Shown here: piece after piece, positions 51,423 through 61,596 of the stretch | Numbering within the stretch: the stretch's first letter is position 1 | Layout of the letters: each line of letters opens with the position of its first letter | Source of the DNA: Hallerella succinigenes | GTDB lineage: Bacteria > Fibrobacterota > Fibrobacteria > Fibrobacterales > Fibrobacteraceae | Length of the DNA stretch: 64,000 nucleotides | Assembly: GCF_002797675.1 (NCBI RefSeq) | Contig: NZ_PGEX01000001.1 | Span: forward strand, 2,790,001-2,854,000 | Reading direction: 5' to 3' | Notes under the pieces: model-generated | The model's input: the letters and a program-made list of their open reading frames with translations, nothing else | Databases searched by the model: none | What the model was told of the DNA's origin: nothing | Program-made: the position numbers and the translations under genes

Positions 51423-52124
51423 CTATTCCGGCAGGGATTCGGCGAGGAGCTGCGCCACGTCTGCTGGATTCGAATGGGTGAGCATCCCCTGGTTGAATTC
51501 GATTTCGAAACCCAGATACTCCGAATCCTTGTACTGCTTGCGAAGTGCGGTCGCGTGTCCGTCGGTCTTGCCAAGGTACGGGTAGTTAAAACGGACGCGC
51601 AGTTCCGGGAAGTAGGTTTCCAGGTTTTTCTTGAGAGCCTTGGCGTAGGCGGCTTCCTTTTTGCGGGAAGGGTCGTACAGAATGCCGATGTCCGCATTGC
51701 GCACCTTACCATCGAGTTCCGGGGTAAAGCTATGGATGGAAAGGTGAATGATTTGGGAAGGATTCTTTTTGGAAAGCTCCGCCTTGACCGCACCGAGAAA
51801 AGCGTCGCGGAAACCGTCCCAGTAGCCTTCCATGCGTTGCTTTTCCACATCGGTCGCCTGTTCGGTGAATTCCGAGTAACGGTGGTTCTTGTTGCTGTTG
51901 CGGTTCAGGTCGATCGCAAGGCGGGTATAGGCGCCCTGGATTGCGTACGAGGTACGGAGGATTTTTGCGAGTTCCCAAAAAACGTCTCCGGCACCGATGT
52001 CGTAACCGCGGTGCGTTTTTAAGACAGCTTTTGCTTCCTTGCTTTTGAAGTGAGCCTTCAAAAATTCTGGAACGGCGTTCGAAGCGTGTTCACTACTCAA
52101 GAAAAGGACGGATTTTTTCTGCAT
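51423..52124 (-). CDS. N-formylglutamate amidohydrolase family protein
   Basis: 233 residues of the FGase fold. The family blocks are [12 protein letters not shown] (Glu-His metal site), [19 protein letters not shown] and [12 protein letters not shown] with [10 protein letters not shown]. Classical members release formate from N-formylglutamate in histidine breakdown, but no other hut genes are near and many relatives have unknown amide substrates. It is divergent from the thi operon; its start and the thi promoter overlap within 20 bp. Confidence 0.83.
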
Positions 52125-52271: not shown

Positions 52272-52481
52272 ATGATAAAAGTAAACGGTGTCGATATCGA
52301 TACGGATGGAAAATCCTTTGCGGGAAAATCCATCGCCGAATATCTTTCAACCACAAATTTTGATTCGAAACGGATTGCCGTTGAAAAAAACGGTGAAATC
52401 GTTCCTAAGGCAAAGTACGCAGAAACGCTCCTCGCGGATGGCGACACCTTGGAAGTGGTCAGCTTTGTAGGAGGCGGCTGA
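52272..52481 (+). CDS. thiS: Sulfur carrier protein ThiS
   Basis: 69 residues, ubiquitin-like beta-grasp, ending in the required Gly-Gly as FVGGG, with one more Gly than the usual end. The C-terminal glycine is adenylated by ThiF and then carries the sulfur for the thiazole ring. The N-terminal part has a short insert ([16 protein letters not shown]) compared with E. coli ThiS. Directly under the TPP riboswitch; its stop overlaps the thiF start as TGATG. Confidence 0.92.
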
Positions 52482-53152
52482 TGTCGAACCTCCCTTCTAA
52501 AGAAGAAATGTTCCGGGCTCTAGTCGAACGACAGGGCTTAGAAAATGTGCAAAAGTTGCAGGCGGCGACGGTGGCGGTTTGCGGCCTTGGCGGTCTAGGT
52601 TCGAATGTGGCGATTGCGCTTGCTCGCGCTGGAGTGGGGAAGCTCATTTTGGTCGACTGCGATACGGTGGATGTCACGAATTTGCACCGTCAGCAGTATA
52701 AGGCGTGCCAGGTGGGGATGCCCAAAACGGACGCTCTTTCCCAGAATCTGAAAGAGATCGCGCCTTACATTCAAATAGAAACGCATTTTGTCCGCATGAC
52801 CGAAGAAAGCACGCTCGCCCTGGTCGACCGTGCAGATGTTGTCTGCGAAGCCTTTGACAAAGCCGAAGCGAAGGCGATGCTTGTGAACACGGTCCTCGAA
52901 AAAAATCCTGGACAGGTTCTGGTTGCCGCATCGGGAATGGCGGGCTTTGATTCGGCGAATACCATCTTGACCCGAAAGGTCATGAAAAACTTTTACCTGT
53001 GCGGAGACGGCACAAGCGACGTGAATCAGGGCATTGGACTGATAGCCCCGCGCGTGATGGCTTGTGCAGCGCATGAGGCTTTGACAATTATCCGCATTCT
53101 TTGCGGAATGGAAAATAAAATCGCAAAGAAGGAATGTGAAAATGGAAAATGA
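52481..53152 (+). CDS. thiF: ThiS adenylyltransferase ThiF (short type)
   Basis: 223 residues of E1/MoeB fold. The nucleotide-binding [19 protein letters not shown] and [13 protein letters not shown] blocks are intact. The two CxxC zinc pairs of E. coli ThiF are absent, as in the shorter family-2 ThiF proteins of many anaerobes. It adenylates the C-terminus of ThiS. Coupled to thiS by a 1-nt overlap, with its end overlapping thiG by 11 nt. Confidence 0.9.
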
Positions 53153-53912
53153 TAAACTGGTGATTGGCGGTCATGCATTCGGATCCCGCTTTATTCTAGG
53201 TTCCGGCAAATATTCTTTGAAGCTTATCGAAGCGGCGGTGCAGTATGCGGGTGCAGAAATCATCACGTGTGCGGTGCGTCGCGCAAATACCAAGGAACAT
53301 GAAAATATCCTCGATTACATTCCGAAGAGTGCAACTCTTTTGCCGAATACTTCGGGTGCGCGAAATGCGGAAGAAGCGGTGCGTATTGCACGCCTTGCCC
53401 GTGAACTCGGCTGCGGTGATTTTGTAAAAATCGAAATCATGCGCGACTCCAAATATCTTTTGCCGGATAACTATGAAACGGTGAAGGCTACGGAAGTCCT
53501 TGCGAAGGAAGGCTTTGTCGTAATGCCGTACATGTATCCGGATCTGAATGTGGCGCGTGATCTGGTGAATGCAGGCGCTGCTGCTGTGATGCCGCTTGCG
53601 TCGCCGATCGGTTCGAACCGGGGTCTTGCGACGAAGGATTTCATCCAGATTTTGATTGACGAAATTGAACTCCCGATTATTGTGGATGCTGGCATCGGTA
53701 AGCCGTCTGAAGCATGCGCCGCCATGGAAATGGGCGCAGCCGCCATTATGGCGAATACGGCTCTTGCCACAGCGGGCGATTTGCCTCGTATGGCCGCTGC
53801 CTTTAAGTCTGCAATCGAAGCTGGTAGAAACGCTTACCTTGCTGGCCTTGGCCGCGTGCTTTCCCGTGGAGCAAGTTCCAGCGACCCGCTCACAGGATTC
53901 CTCCGCGACTAA
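53142..53912 (+). CDS. thiG: Thiazole synthase
   Basis: 256 residues, TIM barrel. The Schiff-base lysine lies in ITCAVRRAN to [11 protein letters not shown] region, and [32 protein letters not shown] and [10 protein letters not shown] are ThiG blocks. It joins deoxyxylulose phosphate, dehydroglycine and ThiS-thiocarboxylate to make the thiazole phosphate. I prefer ATG 53142 ([10 protein letters not shown]) with AAGGA upstream over the GTG at 53136. Confidence 0.94.
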
Positions 53913-53922
53913 GGACTTTTAT

Positions 53923-54801
53923 ATGAATCGTTTTGCTTCCGCTATTTTCGTTCTTACCGTCGCGGCTGCGGCTTATGCGACTACTTGTCTCGATGCATAT
54001 CGCTACGCTGATATGGGTGTTCATAGTTACATTCAAGTGTACGATGCGTATGTAGATAGCTCGTATCAATATTGGGCCGATGATGACTTCGTAATGTCAA
54101 AATATGAGTACGAGAATGGAGCAATATCTAAGATTACCAGGAATGATTCAGGTAAAGAAGTTGCTCAACAAATCAATATTTTTAATGATGATTCAAAGTT
54201 AAGCGGAACCGGAGAAGAATTCTACTATCAGAAAAGTATCAACGGGGATACGATTTCGGTTTTATTCAAAATATTTGAAGATGGAAAGGAAATCGTTTAC
54301 GACCTGGGAAAATATTTTACTTCGGGTAGTATCAGCTATTCCAAAGAGTATAGGGAAAAGTATTGTGAAGAAGGGTCTTGCTATTCGGAGCTTAATGTTT
54401 ACACGTATATAAGCAACGACACTTTGTATGATATTGTGGTTCAATCTTATGAAGATGGCTATTTGGACACAACACAGCATGAAATTGTGATTCTAGATTC
54501 TCAAGATTCCTTAAAATGTTCTGAGTGGTATTATGATGATGAAGATAGGGAATTCTACGAACACACAAAAATAGAAGTCATTGATGATGAAGGTGGATTT
54601 GTTGTTGTTTCTACGCGATTACACGATGGGTATTTAAGAAAAGATTTTATGCGTTATGTGAATGGTAAAGTTCCTGAAAATGAGGGCGTAACTCATGTTG
54701 GACGTCGCGCCATTGTAAATCCTACACCTAGTAAAATGTTTATGCGAGATCTTAAAGGTCGTAAGCAGAACAAACGCGTACCTTATCACGTTATCTTTTA
54801 A
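53923..54801 (+). CDS. Secreted orphan protein inserted between thiG and thiH
   Basis: 292 residues. A clear signal peptide (MNRFASAIFVLTVAAAAYAT) is followed by an acidic, Tyr/Asp-rich body with many short strands (YEYENGAISKITRND, DTISVLFKIFEDGKEIVYD) that resembles repeat-type beta proteins; a basic tail (RDLKGRKQNKRVPYH) ends it. Not a thiamine enzyme that I know. It is strikingly more AT-rich than thiG and thiH and uses A/T-ending codons, so it looks acquired. AAGGA before the ATG shows that it can be translated from the thi transcript. Gaps to thiG and thiH are 10 and 14 bp, so the operon stays intact around it. Function unknown. Confidence 0.75.
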   Translation: MNRFASAIFVLTVAAAAYATTCLDAYRYADMGVHSYIQVYDAYVDSSYQYWADDDFVMSKYEYENGAISKITRNDSGKEVAQQINIFNDDSKLSGTGEEFYYQKSINGDTISVLFKIFEDGKEIVYDLGKYFTSGSISYSKEYREKYCEEGSCYSELNVYTYISNDTLYDIVVQSYEDGYLDTTQHEIVILDSQDSLKCSEWYYDDEDREFYEHTKIEVIDDEGGFVVVSTRLHDGYLRKDFMRYVNGKVPENEGVTHVGRRAIVNPTPSKMFMRDLKGRKQNKRVPYHVIF

Positions 54802-54815
54802 GTGGTTGAATTTTT

Positions 54816-56162
54816 ATGTCTGAAAAAGAATATCACGACGAACGTTTTTTGATAGATTCCGAAGCCCTGTCTCCAGCTGTGCTCGAACGCAAACATCGTT
54901 TGGAAAAGGACCCGAATTCCCGAACCAATTTTATGGAATACATGAAGGGAATGGAAGTTCTCAAGTCCGATATTTACGGACGTGTGATGGGCCATGTTGA
55001 TACTTATGATTATTCCAAGTACACGGCTGCCGATGTGCGCCGAGCCTTGGAACATGACACTTGCTCGATCGAAGACTTTAAGGCTCTTCTTTCTCCGGCA
55101 GCGGCTCCGTATTTGGAAAAAATGGCGCAGAAGGCAAAACTCGAAACGAGCAAGCACTTTGGCAATACGGTCTATTTCTTTACGCCGCTCTACATCGCCA
55201 ACTACTGCGAAAACTACTGCGTCTATTGCGGCTTCAACTGCTACAACAAAATCAAACGCGTCCAGCTTTCCATGGAGCAGATCGAGCGCGAAATGAAAAT
55301 CATCGCCGACAGCGGCATGGAAGAAGTGCTGATCCTTACCGGCGAAAGCCGTGCCAAGAGCAGCGTGGAATACATCGGCGATGCCTGCAAGATTGCTCAC
55401 AAGTACTTCCGCATGGTTGGCGTTGAAGTCTATCCGATGAACACGGACGAGTACAAGTACCTGCATGAATGCGGCGTTGACTACGTTACCGTTTTCCAGG
55501 AAACTTACGACAAGGTCCGCTACGAACAGCTTCACTTGCTTGGCCACAAGCGCGTGTACCCGTACCGCTTTGACTCTCAGGAACGCGCCCTCATGGGTGG
55601 AATGCGCGGTTGCGGATTCTCCGCTTTGCTCGGCCTTTCCGATTTCAGAAAGGACGCCTTGGCGAGCGCTTTGCACGTTTACTATTTGCAAAAGAAGTAT
55701 CCGCATGCGGAAATGAGCCTTTCCTGCCCAAGACTTCGCCCGATTGTGAACAACGACAAGATCAATCCGTTAGATGTTCACGAACGTGAACTTTGCCAGA
55801 TCCTCTGTGCATACCGTATCTTTTTGCCGTTTGTCGGCATCACCGTTTCGAGTCGCGAAAGCAAGGAATTCCGCAATGGCATCGTCAAAATCTGTGCCAC
55901 GAAGATTTCCGCAGGCGTCTCCACGGGCATCGGCGATCACGAAAGCAAGTACAAGATGGATTCCTGCAATCCGCGTACAACCGAAGAAAACGCCGCGAAG
56001 GCGGCTGCCCAAAAAGGCGAAGCCGTTCCAACAGAATCGGCTAATGATGGGGAAGGCGATGAACAGTTTGAAATCAACGATTCTCGCAGCTTCGGAACGA
56101 TGTATAAGGATATCAGTAACGAAGGCTTGCAGCCGGTTCTCAACGATTACCTTTATGTGTAG
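54816..56162 (+). CDS. thiH: 2-iminoacetate synthase ThiH
   Basis: 448-residue radical SAM enzyme. The cluster motif is CENYCVYC (C-x3-C-x2-C, about residues 131-138). ILTGESRAKSSVEYIGDAC and LSCPRLRPIVNNDK are ThiH-type blocks. It cleaves tyrosine to dehydroglycine and p-cresol, the oxygen-sensitive route to the thiazole. It is longer than E. coli ThiH (about 377), with a low-complexity Ala/Glu/Gly insert at about 395-415 before the conserved end GDEQFEINDSRS. HydG is a close relative, but the thi context and the missing HydG tail cysteines favour ThiH. Confidence 0.9.
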   Translation: MSEKEYHDERFLIDSEALSPAVLERKHRLEKDPNSRTNFMEYMKGMEVLKSDIYGRVMGHVDTYDYSKYTAADVRRALEHDTCSIEDFKALLSPAAAPYLEKMAQKAKLETSKHFGNTVYFFTPLYIANYCENYCVYCGFNCYNKIKRVQLSMEQIEREMKIIADSGMEEVLILTGESRAKSSVEYIGDACKIAHKYFRMVGVEVYPMNTDEYKYLHECGVDYVTVFQETYDKVRYEQLHLLGHKRVYPYRFDSQERALMGGMRGCGFSALLGLSDFRKDALASALHVYYLQKKYPHAEMSLSCPRLRPIVNNDKINPLDVHERELCQILCAYRIFLPFVGITVSSRESKEFRNGIVKICATKISAGVSTGIGDHESKYKMDSCNPRTTEENAAKAAAQKGEAVPTESANDGEGDEQFEINDSRSFGTMYKDISNEGLQPVLNDYLYV

Positions 56163-56278
56163 TGTTCAAGTTGAATTTGGAACCATTGAGTTGCAATATT
56201 GAAAAAGATTTTTTTAGCGTGATGGAAAACGCTCGAGAAATTTTGCTTGGAAAAGACTAAAATTGTTAGTTTTGCACT

Positions 56279-56905
56279 ATGAAAAATCTGGATACGACTC
56301 TTTATTTTGTGACCGACAGCACGGTGGTGCCGGAAGAACTTTTTTTGCCTTCTGTGGAGGCGGCTTGCAAGGGCGGAGTTTCCATGATCCAGCTCCGCGA
56401 AAAAAAATCTTCCACTCGAGAGTATTTGCAGTTGGCGGAAAAGGTCCACGCGATTACCAAACGCTTTCAAATTCCGCTGATTATTGATGACCGTGTCGAT
56501 GTCGCGCTTGCCATCGATGCAGAAGGCGTTCATGTGGGGCAGTCGGATATGCCGGTTGCAATCGCCCGTAAACTGATGGGACCGGATAAAATTGTCGGGG
56601 CAACGACCAAAACGGTTCCGCAGGCTTTGGAAGCTTACCAGGCTGGAGCGGATTACCTCGGAGTCGGAGCGATTTACCCGACGACGACTAAAGTCGTGAC
56701 GATTCTCACGAGCGTCGATACGTTGAAGGAAATTGTAAAAGCGGTTCCGATCCATGTGAATGCAATCGGCGGACTGAACAAGGAAAATATCCAGGTGTTG
56801 CAGGGAACCGGAATTTCGGGCATCTGCGCTGTCTCTGCCATACAAAAAGCAGCCGACCCGGAGGTGGCTGCTCGAGAACTCAAGGCTGCGTTCCTTGCGT
56901 TGTAA
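56279..56905 (+). CDS. thiE: Thiamine-phosphate synthase
   Basis: 208 residues, TIM barrel. QLREKKSSTREYLQ, HVGQSDMP, GATTKTVPQALEA and DYLGVGAIYPTTTK are the ThiE phosphate and pyrophosphate-binding blocks; AIGGLNKENI closes the barrel. It couples HMP-pyrophosphate and thiazole phosphate into thiamine phosphate. It follows thiH by 116 bp, a gap that may hold its own promoter (a TTAGTT box lies 7 nt before the ATG). Its stop abuts the GCS2-type gene stop on the other strand with no spacer. Confidence 0.93.
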   Translation: MKNLDTTLYFVTDSTVVPEELFLPSVEAACKGGVSMIQLREKKSSTREYLQLAEKVHAITKRFQIPLIIDDRVDVALAIDAEGVHVGQSDMPVAIARKLMGPDKIVGATTKTVPQALEAYQAGADYLGVGAIYPTTTKVVTILTSVDTLKEIVKAVPIHVNAIGGLNKENIQVLQGTGISGICAVSAIQKAADPEVAARELKAAFLAL

Positions 56906-58138
56906 TTACATGTAAAGCGTATTTGTCGCAAGCGAGTGGGCGAGTTTCGCATACTCCTGCACAAAGGCTTTTTGGCTCGGCTTTTCGCCGAGCTTTTTCA
57001 CGAGCACAGTCGCGAGCGTTCCGCGGTTCAGAATCTTTTCAAGGACCGTCTGGGATTCTGCGGAAATATCCGAATGCACTTTTTGAAGGATGGCTTTTAA
57101 AAGGTCCTTCGCCTGCATTTCGGAAGTTTCCATTCCAAAGATTTTCAGATAATCGGCATCCTGAATCAGAGCTTCTTCCGCATCCTTGACGGTCGCAAAA
57201 AGAATCTTGACGAGCTTGTCCGTGTCGAATGCTTTTTGCACTTCGAGAGAGGCAAACGTTCCCTTCGCAAATCCCTTGAGAATAGCCATTTCAAATTCCG
57301 CAAGGGCGACGTCCGCCTTGGGGCATTCCTGAATGTCCACCAGTCGAATTTCCACCGCTCCACGGTCAAAGCGTGCAATAGCTCCGCGGCTGTTCAAGAA
57401 GAAATGATTCAGCAGATGATCCGTATCGTACGGCGCAATATCACGTTTGACGACTTCAAAGATTTTTTCGTTGTAATCCGCTTCGGTAAAGATCGCTTCC
57501 GGAATCACCTTGCCGGTAATGCTAGGAATTTTTTCCTGATTGTGACGGTACGTTTCAATGCGAGCATCCTTGTAGCCTGTGTAACGGCTATCGAGATAAG
57601 GACTCGACGCGGCAAATGCCGGAATCAGCGGCAAGAGCAGTCGAATCGCCGCGTGAAGCTTCCCGAATTCTTCATCGCCGCAGAACGAAATATTCAAATG
57701 CGTGGACTGCAAATTGGCCCAGCCGTGACCGCGGCAGTCAAAGATGCGATCGTACGCTTCGTAGATCTCGTTGCAGTCATACGGCCAAAGCGTTGTTTCT
57801 GTCATCGGATCCATAAACGGATGCGCTGCGGTCGGCAAAAGCTCTGCGTCGATCTTTGAAAGCGTTTCGTTCGCCGCAAGGATTTCCTGGTGGAATCGAT
57901 CGCTCCAACCGGCAAAACTGTTCGCCGGTTCTGCACACTTGAATTCAAGAACGTGGGAAACGAGTTCGTTCGAAAGCCCGACGTCACCGTGTTGCAAGTC
58001 CGAACGGTTTTCGCCGTTTTCGTCTTTGCCGAGAACCGCATCGACGCGGGGCAGAACTTTGCCGGTTTCTTTAGAAACGATCATATATTCGAGTTCAAGC
58101 CCGAACCGATCGAAGAGATGCCAAGGAGAATTGCTCAT
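56906..58138 (-). CDS. GCS2-family carboxylate-amine ligase
   Basis: 410 residues of the glutamine-synthetase-fold GCS2 group. The N-terminal FGLELEYMIV carries metal-binding glutamates, and GHGWANLQSTHLNISF and FDRGAVEIRLVDIQECP are further active-site strands. Such enzymes join an amine to a glutamate (or similar) carboxylate with ATP, as in gamma-glutamylcysteine formation; the actual partner is unknown. It overlaps the ATP-grasp gene by 4 nt (ATGA) and is the last gene of the leftward trio. It is not a standard GshA; no glutathione synthetase of the GshB type is seen. Confidence 0.82.
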   Translation of the reverse strand: MSNSPWHLFDRFGLELEYMIVSKETGKVLPRVDAVLGKDENGENRSDLQHGDVGLSNELVSHVLEFKCAEPANSFAGWSDRFHQEILAANETLSKIDAELLPTAAHPFMDPMTETTLWPYDCNEIYEAYDRIFDCRGHGWANLQSTHLNISFCGDEEFGKLHAAIRLLLPLIPAFAASSPYLDSRYTGYKDARIETYRHNQEKIPSITGKVIPEAIFTEADYNEKIFEVVKRDIAPYDTDHLLNHFFLNSRGAIARFDRGAVEIRLVDIQECPKADVALAEFEMAILKGFAKGTFASLEVQKAFDTDKLVKILFATVKDAEEALIQDADYLKIFGMETSEMQAKDLLKAILQKVHSDISAESQTVLEKILNRGTLATVLVKKLGEKPSQKAFVQEYAKLAHSLATNTLYM

Positions 58139-59643
58139 AAGATGTAAGAATCGATTCCGTGATGTTGCAGCAAACGTTGCTGTGCCGAGTTCATGCGTTC
58201 TTCGATGCGGCGGCGCAGGGAGTGCATGATCGTGAGATAGACCTTTTCTCCGCCGATTTGGTCTTCGATGTTGTCATCGATGCTCGGGTTGTCATTGACT
58301 TCAATCACCATCGGTTTGCCGTTGACTTCTTTGAGGTCGACGCCATACAGACCGTTGCCAATGAGGGAGGCAACGCGAAGGGCCGCCTTGATGATGCCGT
58401 GGGGAACTTCGTCAAGAGGCACGCAGTCAAAGAGGCCGCAGATGTCGTCTTCGTTTTTGGAGTTCCAGTTGTAAATCTGCCAATGGTCCTTGGCCATGTA
58501 ATAACGGCAAGCGTAGAACGGTCTGCCGTCGAGAATGCCGATTCTCCAGTCGAATTTCGTCGGGGTGAATTCCTGGGCAATGATCAGGTCGCTGCTTTCG
58601 AACATCTTGTCGAGATTCGCCTGTAGTTCCTTTTCATCCTTGACTTTGACGACGCCCATGGAGAAACTCGAATCCGGAGCTTTCAAAATCATCGGAAAAC
58701 CGATTTGCTTGGAAAGCTCGTGGCGGTTTTCGGAATGGGCGATAATCGTATGTGGCGCGGGAATCTTTCCGACCGTCATCAGTTCCTGCAGGTAAACCTT
58801 GTTCGAACAGCGGAGAATGCTGTCCGGGTCGTCGATTACGGCGATTCCCTGGGACTGTGCACGGCGTGCGAATGCGTACGTGTGATGGTTCACATTGGTC
58901 GTTTCGCGGATAAAGAGTGCATCGAATTCGCCGACGCGGTGGTAATCTTTTTTGGTGATGAGCTCGACGCGGAAACCCGTTTTTTCGGCGGCGGCGATAA
59001 ACTTTTGAATCGCTTTCGCATTGGACGGCGGTTCCTTTTCTTCCGGGTTGACGAGGATTGCGAGGTCGTAGAGATAGTCGTCCGTGTGAGCCGATGAAAA
59101 GCGGTTCTTGTCGAAGTATTCCTTAGCGAACTGGTCCACCATTTCCAAATGGGAATCCGGAATTTCGTTCACGCAGATCGGGCGGATACTCTGAATAAAC
59201 CATTTCTGTTTAAACACAAAGTGCGCACGCAGAAGCGGAGCCTGGAACTGTCGGTAAAGCTCCTGTGAAAGTTCTAGATATTGCGGGCTCACGTTCTGAC
59301 CGAAGTAAATCGACAGGGTGAATTCCGAGCCGGTAAGCTTGTGCAGACTTTTCTGGATCAAGTCGTCGATTTCTTCTGAGATGTTCTTGACAACAGCAGG
59401 TGCTTTGAAATCACGAATGCTTTTGACGTTCGGAATGACTTTGTGACCACGGGCTTCGGCGAGCAGGGATACGTAGTAGCCTTTGCTTTGGTAGCTGTAG
59501 TCTTTGCACAGGTTGAAGACGCGCACGTTTCGCATCTTCGTGAATTCTGTATTTGTCAAGTAATCCTTGGCAGATACGACCTGCACTTCAGAAACGTGAA
59601 ACTTCCAGTTCTTCGGATTGTTGACAACGATGAGTTTTTTCAT
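58135..59643 (-). CDS. RimK-like ATP-grasp ligase with RLAN N-terminal domain
   Basis: 502 residues. The first ~180 (MKKLIVVNNPKNWKFHVSEV, VFNLCKDYSYQSKGYYVSLL) match the RLAN domain that precedes certain RimK-like ligases. The ATP-grasp fold covers about 270-480, with GFPMILKAPDSSFSMGV as the ATP-binding lysine and loop region and VDLKEVNGKPMVIEVNDNP as the Mg-binding strand. It should form an amide or peptide bond by activating a carboxylate. The gene overlaps both neighbours by 4 nt, so all three proteins are made together. The substrate is unknown. Confidence 0.85.
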   Translation of the reverse strand: MKKLIVVNNPKNWKFHVSEVQVVSAKDYLTNTEFTKMRNVRVFNLCKDYSYQSKGYYVSLLAEARGHKVIPNVKSIRDFKAPAVVKNISEEIDDLIQKSLHKLTGSEFTLSIYFGQNVSPQYLELSQELYRQFQAPLLRAHFVFKQKWFIQSIRPICVNEIPDSHLEMVDQFAKEYFDKNRFSSAHTDDYLYDLAILVNPEEKEPPSNAKAIQKFIAAAEKTGFRVELITKKDYHRVGEFDALFIRETTNVNHHTYAFARRAQSQGIAVIDDPDSILRCSNKVYLQELMTVGKIPAPHTIIAHSENRHELSKQIGFPMILKAPDSSFSMGVVKVKDEKELQANLDKMFESSDLIIAQEFTPTKFDWRIGILDGRPFYACRYYMAKDHWQIYNWNSKNEDDICGLFDCVPLDEVPHGIIKAALRVASLIGNGLYGVDLKEVNGKPMVIEVNDNPSIDDNIEDQIGGEKVYLTIMHSLRRRIEERMNSAQQRLLQHHGIDSYIL

Positions 59644-60341
59644 TTCTTTTTTGGTTGTACGGCAAGTATTAAGCTGTCGTAAGTGAGAATACCTAAGAGA
59701 ATACTATGTACGAGTCGATTACGTTCAACTGCGTAATAGTGATCATGGGCAATTGGATTTGTACAGTCCGGATCAGCAATTAAGAATTTCTTCTCTTCGT
59801 TTTCACCGTAGACGACAACAAAGTGACCCATCGGGTCGCCGTGGATATCATCAAAAACGGACATGTTGTCCGAGTTCGTATATTCCCGTTTGCTCTGATA
59901 CAGAAAAGTAGTAGAAACGCCCGCAATCAGGGGAACGTTCTTTTTGAAATAGCGGTCGAAAAGCCCCGGTTTGAAGTCTTTGAGGCTTACGATTCCGCCC
60001 AATTCAATAAATCGGAGATACGCCTTGATGGCGACGCGGAGCTTGGCACGATGCTTGGCCGCATATTCCTGCCGCAGCTTGTCGGCAAGCGCTTCCATAG
60101 ATAAATTAACCCACGTGGGATCAAAGATCTCTAGGTTGACAGAATGGATGGTTGCATCGAATCCGCGCTTTAAGGCGTCGAGGCCGAGAAAGACTCCTAG
60201 GGTTCCGCCTCCTTCGAGCATCTCAATCTCGCTGATCAGCCGATGGAGGGAAATCTGGTAACCGTAGTGATGGTAGATCGCGTGCAGGCTTGTAGGCCCG
60301 CACGTCACGTCATCCGGTTGTGGAAGAATCTTGACATTCAT
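59640..60341 (-). CDS. C39-like papain-fold cysteine peptidase
   Basis: 233 residues, no signal peptide. LPQPDDVTCGPTSLHAIYHH contains the oxyanion Gln8 and nucleophile Cys14, GDPMGHFVVVYGENEE the catalytic His, and FLIADPD the Asp, a full C39-type set. C39 domains trim leader peptides in exporter proteins, but this one stands free and is cytoplasmic. It may process or transfer the product of the adjacent ligases. It starts 26 bp after the dnaJ stop with no terminator between, so it is probably read with the chaperone genes. A GGGTG lies before ATG 60341. Confidence 0.8.
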   Translation of the reverse strand: MNVKILPQPDDVTCGPTSLHAIYHHYGYQISLHRLISEIEMLEGGGTLGVFLGLDALKRGFDATIHSVNLEIFDPTWVNLSMEALADKLRQEYAAKHRAKLRVAIKAYLRFIELGGIVSLKDFKPGLFDRYFKKNVPLIAGVSTTFLYQSKREYTNSDNMSVFDDIHGDPMGHFVVVYGENEEKKFLIADPDCTNPIAHDHYYAVERNRLVHSILLGILTYDSLILAVQPKKK

Positions 60342-60367: not shown

Positions 60368-61507
60368 TTACGAGAAGAAACCTTTGATCTTTTCAATCAG
60401 GCTTTCGTCCTTCGCATTGTCCTTGTCTTTGCGAAGTTCCGCTAGCTGCTTGTAAAGGTCCTTTTCCTTCGAAGAAAGATCGGTCGGAATGGCCGCATTC
60501 ACTTCGACGAAGAGGTTTCCACGCGCACCACGTCCGTTCAGCGGAGGAAGTCCCTGTTCCTTCAGACGGAACACGGCTCCCGGCTGCGTACCGGCTGAAA
60601 CCTTGATCGAAACTTCGCCACCGTCGAGAGTCGGAATGCGAAGGTTTCCGCCCAAGACGAGCTTGTAAACAGGAACGTCGATGGTGCAGTGCAGGTCATC
60701 GCCTTCACGCGTGTAAAAGTCGTTCTTCTTTTCGGCGATGACGACGAGCAAATCGCCCGCAGCGCCGCCGCGAGGACCGCAATGGCCTTCGCCGCGCAAG
60801 TTCAAATACTGGCCTTCCGAAACGCCGACCGGAATCTTGATCGAAATCGTTTCTTCTTCGAGAACGCGACCTTCGCCGTGGCAAATAGAACACGGCTTGC
60901 CGATCACTTCGCCGAGACCGTTACAGTCCGGGCAAGTCGTTTCGCTCACCATTTGGAAGAACGAACGCGTCACGCGGCGTACACGGCCTGTACCGTGGCA
61001 AGTAGGGCATTCCTTCACATTAGAACCGCCCTTGCCGTTACATTCCGTACAAGGCGCATAACGCTTTAGGCGGACCTTCTTCGTCGTACCGGTGAGAATT
61101 TCTTTATACGAGAGAGCGATCTTGATTTGCAGATCCTGTCCACGCGGAGGACCTTGACGACCACGGGAAGACGAATGGAATCCGCCGAAGCCACCGCCGA
61201 AGATGTCGCCGAACTGGCTGAAGATATCTTCGAAGTTGCTGAAACCGCCGCTGAAGCCGCCTGCGCCTGGACCGCCTGCGCCCGGCATGTTAAAGCCGAA
61301 CTGGTCGTATTGGGCGCGCTTCTTTGAATCGGAGAGCACTTCGTAAGCTTCAGCAGCTTCCTTGAACTTTTCTTCTGCTTCCTTGTTGCCCGGGTTCTTG
61401 TCCGGGTGATATTTAATGGCGAGTTTTTTGTACGCGTGCTTGATGTCGTCGGCGCTTGCATCTTTGGAAACGCCTAGGACTTCGTAGTAATCTCTTTTCT
61501 CTGCCAT
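60368..61507 (-). CDS. dnaJ: Chaperone protein DnaJ
   Basis: 379 residues, full type I architecture: J domain (1-70) with KYHPDKNPG, a Gly/Phe-rich stretch (75-125), four CxxCxGxG zinc repeats ([32 protein letters not shown]) and the C-terminal substrate-binding domain. It delivers unfolded clients to DnaK and stimulates ATP hydrolysis. Third of grpE-dnaK-dnaJ. The 119-bp gap to dnaK holds a terminator-like hairpin, which may lower its expression. Confidence 0.95.
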
Positions 61508-61558: not shown

Positions 61559-61596
61559 AAAAAAAAGGATTCCCCCCCCGAGGAGGGGAAAATCCT
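61559..61596 (-). terminator. Terminator or attenuator between dnaK and dnaJ
   Basis: Read leftward, AGGATT and CCCC pair with GGGG and AATCCT around a short loop, followed by about eight T residues. A C8 run is part of the stem. It may end most dnaK transcripts. Confidence 0.7.

Follow-up and report, generated by a model that had tools for sequence, protein, structure and literature searches.

A 64,000-nucleotide stretch of the Hallerella succinigenes genome (contig NZ_PGEX01000001.1, positions 2,790,001 to 2,854,000; hereafter the window) encodes three tightly packed enzymes, a C39-like cysteine peptidase, a predicted RLAN/RimK-type ATP-grasp ligase and a predicted GCS2-type carboxylate-amine ligase, together with a displaced fourth, an amidase resembling N-formylglutamate amidohydrolase (FGase). 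Since two amide-building and two amide-cutting enzymes stay together across phyla, the operon probably makes and turns over a small glutamyl peptide. The more specific proposal, in which the four enzymes form one cytosolic pathway for a gamma-glutamyl-type small peptide, with a synthesis arm and a turnover arm, has in our judgement an even chance of being correct. The genome is a single contig of 3.13 Mb from a relative of Fibrobacter, and its RLAN protein is 91% identical to that of cultured F. intestinalis ATCC 43854 and up to 98% identical to those of nearer metagenome-assembled genomes (MAGs).

Conservation of the four-gene operon

The three adjacent genes occupy the minus strand at 59640-60341 (C39-like peptidase, 233 residues), 58135-59643 (RLAN ligase, 502 residues) and 56906-58138 (GCS2 ligase, 410 residues). 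As described in an earlier note on this DNA, they overlap by four nucleotides at both joints (59640-59643 and 58135-58138), with ATGA at each. The note had also proposed that the amide-forming ligases and the peptidase constitute one functional unit, and had suggested a search for the same three-gene order in other genomes. The order is found again in many genera across several phyla and is thus not due to chance, and both this conserved order and the co-retention of the genes agree with a single unit. The description was nevertheless incomplete, as it had overlooked the FGase at 51423-52124, which has the orientation of the trio and is present only once in the genome.

Clustering of the flanking genes placed this family of ~230 residues downstream of GCS2 in 47 of 80 related loci. 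These include 27 of the 35 loci with numbers from L047 upward, nearly all of which are from organisms other than Fibrobacter. The full order C39-RLAN-GCS2-FGase was present in 45 examined loci (44 distinct, since L147 repeats L005) from Fibrobacter, Bacteroidota (e.g., Rufibacter, Pontibacter, Geofilum and Imperialibacter), Ignavibacteria and a Desulfobulbaceae MAG, and the joints were mostly 4-nt overlaps or showed near-zero spacing. The genes for RLAN, GCS2 and FGase were also found together on a plasmid record of Legionella adelaidensis.

The co-occurrence of the four families was analyzed in 168 genomes of Fibrobacterota, representing 41 genera. The 13 genera with GCS2 and the 11 with C39 were all nested within the 15 genera that carry RLAN. 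The same held for the ten FGase genera apart from one, which gave a weak partial match. The corresponding hypergeometric values (~1e-8) ignore phylogeny and are descriptive only. Pairwise distances of the four proteins were correlated (Spearman 0.58-0.79). Moreover, in 17 Fibrobacter genomes of the F. succinogenes type the operon is split into a C39-FGase pair (gap of 8-24 nt) and an RLAN-GCS2 pair, located 25-125 kb apart or on separate contigs, and both pairs are retained. The hydrolases therefore stay with hydrolases and the ligases with ligases, a pattern suggestive of a single pathway with two functional arms.

The four enzymes

All three families of the trio scored above the curated Pfam cut-offs, and the catalytic residues, which had seemed to be present on first reading, proved to be near-invariant across 55 C39, 81 RLAN and 78 GCS2 proteins. 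No signal peptides or transmembrane segments were detected by hydropathy in any of the four enzymes.

The RLAN ligase, the sole copy in the genome, matched the Pfam families RLAN (1.1e-48; 165 bits, cut-off 25) and RimK (3.6e-10; 40 bits, cut-off 21). Its ATP- and Mg-binding residues (K282, K321, D365, R367, D436, E448 and N450) were retained in 80 of 81 relatives. The ATP-grasp half, the ATP and Mg residues and the Asp-x-Arg motif are shared with the RimK, LysX, ArgX, MptN and CofF ligases. The window protein differs from these in its extra N-terminal RLAN domain, in its partner genes and in scoring far below every equivalog cut-off; for the RimK equivalog that modifies ribosomal protein S6 (PRK10446) it reached 25 bits against a cut-off of 331. 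In an AlphaFold model of the N-terminal region (59074-59643), nearly all of the top matches were LysX, ArgX, synapsin and RimK (best E 1.3e-4, TM ~0.55). On this structural resemblance, the RLAN domain may be a degenerate module of the ATP-grasp type, perhaps a duplicated one, although support from sequence profiles was absent (hhalign 0.2%).

The GCS2 protein matched its Pfam family with 1.8e-21, and the metal-binding residues Glu15, Glu17, Glu65 and Glu263 were retained in all 78 relatives. The Pfam family and the core Glu and Arg motifs are common to the GCS2/YbdK carboxylate-amine ligases, including EgtA and plant-type GshA. In contrast to these ligases, the window protein matches YbdK weakly, carries an invariant motif of its own (NSRGAIA) and falls under the cut-offs of all named subfamilies. 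It did not score as a true glutamate-cysteine ligase of the GshA or EgtA type (42.9 bits versus 332, and 28 versus 249 for gshA_cyano).

The peptidase matched Peptidase_C39 (1.4e-8) and C39_2 (9.9e-7), and its residues Gln8, Cys14, His173 and Asp190 were present in 54-55 of 55 relatives, with alignment gaps accounting for the missing cases. A structural model (pLDDT 88.9) matched the pseudomurein endoisopeptidase PeiR, as the top hit (E 1.4e-5, TM 0.5), and the C39 domains of the exporters PCAT1 and ComA. The Gln-Cys-His-Asp active site within a papain-like fold thus places the protein in Peptidase C39, and these matches, which are at the level of the fold only, would fit a papain-like enzyme with a possible action on isopeptide bonds. 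ComA and PCAT1, as well as the DUF3335 fusions of a GNAT acetyltransferase with C39, share this fold and the same set of residues. Unlike them, the window peptidase is a stand-alone protein of 233 residues with extra helices, which has no exporter and for which no leader-peptide substrate was detected. It is a distant relative of the GNAT-C39 fusion of Azospirillum (hhalign 92.5%). The latter fusion precedes an RLAN ligase gene with a 1-nt overlap and no GCS2 (L129, 4763-7470); RLAN ligases and C39-type peptidases are thus paired here too without GCS2, an acetyltransferase taking its place. On a Pseudomonas aeruginosa plasmid, an RLAN gene occurs without such partners.

The window FGase matched PF05013 with 4.9e-17 (63.3 bits, cut-off 28.9), and a profile comparison with N-formylglutamate amidohydrolase (HutG; PDB 2odf) gave 2.4e-30. 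On family membership one could regard it as the HutG of histidine degradation, with no relation to the trio. The genome, however, contains no urocanase, so that a role in the histidine pathway is unlikely, and in most relatives the gene lies within the ligase operon, adjoining GCS2, and remains beside C39 after the operon has split. The HutG identity was accordingly rejected, and we regard it as improbable in the extreme. The window protein carries Ser at position 11, where Cys occurs in all 47 operon-linked relatives and in the three nearest genomes (G002-G004); this is possibly a strain-specific functional change. In an Ignavibacteriales MAG (L057, 8705-9967), the FGase is fused to an HD-like domain that scores under the Pfam cut-off.

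Proposed pathway and alternative functions

Enzymes of the GCS2 family form gamma-glutamyl amides via glutamyl phosphate, and characterized relatives such as GshA type 2, EgtA and YbdK use small amino-acid substrates, while RimK-like ATP-grasp enzymes join amino acids to carboxylates. By analogy with this family chemistry, the GCS2 enzyme would phosphorylate the gamma-carboxylate of glutamate, or of an analogue, and couple it to an amine. The RLAN enzyme would then phosphorylate a carboxylate of the GCS2 product or of the acceptor and add a further amino acid, yielding a glutathione-like small peptide, which the C39 peptidase and the FGase-like amidohydrolase would trim, transfer in part or degrade.

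Several observations weigh against such a pathway. The co-occurrence counts are inflated because the genomes are related, and a single event may underlie all 17 split operons. Three genomes (G062, G066 and G121) carry RLAN and GCS2 alone, and the group G044-G049 lacks FGase, indicating that the amidases are not always needed. The matches of both ligases to better-known enzymes are at family level only: the RLAN ligase reached 70 bits (1.5e-19) with rimK_fam, below the cut-off of 143, and the GCS2 protein shares core motifs with E. coli YbdK (1r8g) in a weak match (E 0.0016). Finally, RimK-type ligases can also modify proteins.

In a different interpretation, the two ligases attach amino acids to a protein, in the manner of RimK acting on ribosomal protein S6, and C39 and the FGase-like hydrolase detach them again. 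Small molecules, however, are what the GCS2 and FGase families are known to act on, neither being known to act on proteins, and no candidate target protein was linked to the operon across taxa. The match to the RimK family, the combination of putative writers and erasers, and the endoisopeptidase PeiR as the top fold match of the peptidase are consistent with reversible protein modification. A precedent is provided by RimK and its protease RimB, which takes glutamates off RpsF (PMC12239564). On balance, we consider this interpretation rather unlikely, although it is the strongest of the alternatives.

The idea of a ribosomally synthesized and post-translationally modified peptide (RiPP) of the graspetide kind, with the ATP-grasp enzyme acting on a precursor and the C39 peptidase removing its leader, could draw on the resemblance of the C39 model to PCAT1 and ComA, on the presence of MdnB and PsnB among the fold matches of the RLAN N-terminal domain, and on the ability of ABC-exporter C39 peptidases to cleave double-glycine leaders. 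The window peptidase, however, is neither fused nor linked to an ABC exporter, no double-glycine precursor was found, and the abutting genes leave no space for one. The absence of a visible precursor gene, already remarked upon in the earlier note, was upheld by a comparison of 707 short flanking open reading frames (ORFs), none of which was conserved between Fibrobacter and other taxa; a precursor could be encoded by a remote, unlinked gene. All four proteins, moreover, look cytosolic. A RiPP pathway thus appears very improbable, and the cytosolic character of the proteins, together with the lack of a conserved precursor gene beside them, points instead to a non-ribosomal small peptide.

A special case of the gamma-glutamyl peptide pathway is a substitute for glutathione, namely a cysteine-containing, low-molecular-weight thiol, for which GCS2 would serve as gamma-glutamylcysteine ligase and RLAN would replace glutathione synthetase. 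The window genome lacks a type-1 glutamate-cysteine ligase, a GSH-S_ATP glutathione synthetase and BshC, and BshC was found in no genome of family f1. The absence of these glutathione and bacillithiol genes leaves room for a thiol product but does not demonstrate one. Against the thiol, the operon GCS2 is far from the true glutamate-cysteine ligases, genomes of family f3 carry both the operon and BshC, and several Fibrobacteraceae have neither. The operon and BshC are therefore not mutually exclusive, and a replacement of bacillithiol was rejected for lack of a simple pattern of exclusion, the two coexisting in other Fibrobacterota. We consider a glutathione substitute unlikely. An equally low probability is assigned to the broader proposal that the product of the operon is a gamma-glutamyl peptide not described before, possibly a thiol taking the place of glutathione and bacillithiol in Fibrobacteraceae and parts of Bacteroidota and is served by a dedicated C39/FGase turnover arm.

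Searches for other roles gave no informative match for a phage origin of the four genes, and none of the four proteins matched the PADLOC models for anti-phage defence.

Genomic setting of the operon

The FGase and GCS2 genes of the window are separated by a thiamine cluster on the plus strand (52272-56905), comprising thiS, thiF, thiG, another ORF, thiH and thiE; thiE was identified by TMP-TENI (6.6e-61) and the other thi genes were named from sequence motifs. The thiE gene ends at 56905, with its stop codon directly adjoining that of GCS2. In F. intestinalis (L005 and L147) and in G001, FGase comes immediately after GCS2; it is not displaced in G005 and lies ~5 kb away in G000, G002, G003 and G004. 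The simplest reading of these arrangements would be that the thi cluster was inserted into an ancestral four-gene operon within the window's genus. The ORF between thiG and thiH (53656-54801, plus strand) contains a later part that opens like a secreted protein (MNRFASAIFVLTVAAAAYATTC). In some Fibrobacter, a gene of the tyrosine-phosphatase family is located between GCS2 and FGase (L028, 8611-10110; also L027, L034 and L038). In the Desulfobulbaceae MAG, the operon is preceded on its own strand by genes for an amino-acid permease and a lyase of the aspartase/fumarase type (L079, 247-3286). The Rfam search of the window detected two tRNAs only, with no RNA element or riboswitch near the operon or the thi cluster and no TPP riboswitch in the window.

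Upstream of the trio, the dnaJ gene (60368-61507, minus strand; identified by its DnaJ domains) is separated from the C39 gene by 26 nt. No terminator was found in this gap, while dnaK and dnaJ are separated by a strong intrinsic-terminator-like hairpin with a 14-pair stem and a run of seven T after it (61566-61596, minus strand), so that co-transcription of dnaJ with the operon is plausible in this strain. To this extent the shared chaperone operon suggested by the earlier note is credible, but it says nothing general about function. When the linkage was sought elsewhere, as the note had advised, dnaJ was directly upstream of the operon in each of the six genomes from the window's genus (g1; G000-G005) and in no other locus of the set, and the suggested connection with protein stress was not borne out. 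In three Pontibacter loci (L053, L060 and L074), the genes located after the four-gene operon include one with a Pmp3 domain and one with a DnaJ domain. A chaperone-linked stress operon, in which dnaJ and the trio form a unit and damaged proteins are the trio's targets, could draw on the short terminator-free gap and on the Pontibacter DnaJ-domain gene, ~1 kb downstream of FGase. The confinement of the upstream adjacency to one genus argues against it, however, and the single-genus Pontibacter case is within chance by a rough estimate, leaving this interpretation highly unlikely. Judged by gene order, the position of dnaJ is a local accident.

Relation to known systems and significance

The ATP-grasp ligases of the Pseudomonas RimB-RimK and RloA-RloC systems are likewise paired with an opposing protease (PMC12239564). 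In contrast to the window operon, the protease is a retropepsin, and neither GCS2 nor FGase is involved. The four-gene operon represents a conserved neighbourhood of amide ligases with peptidases. A 2009 survey by Iyer et al. reportedly predicted peptide-synthesis operons that unite ATP-grasp or GCS2 ligases with peptidases; this kind of amidoligase-peptidase operon has thus reportedly already been predicted, and only family-level predictions seem to exist. In the limited literature searched, no paper on this operon was found (RLAN, PF14401, alone or with GCS2, RimK, FGase or C39), nor any functional study.

The retention, across phyla, of four enzymes of opposite activity in one operon makes a good case for a small molecule or modification still to be discovered in gut and soil bacteria. 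Concrete, testable steps for the proposed gamma-glutamyl peptide pathway come from the fourth gene and from the separation of the two ligases from the two amidases, and the intact operon in cultured F. intestinalis makes its product open to a direct metabolomic search.

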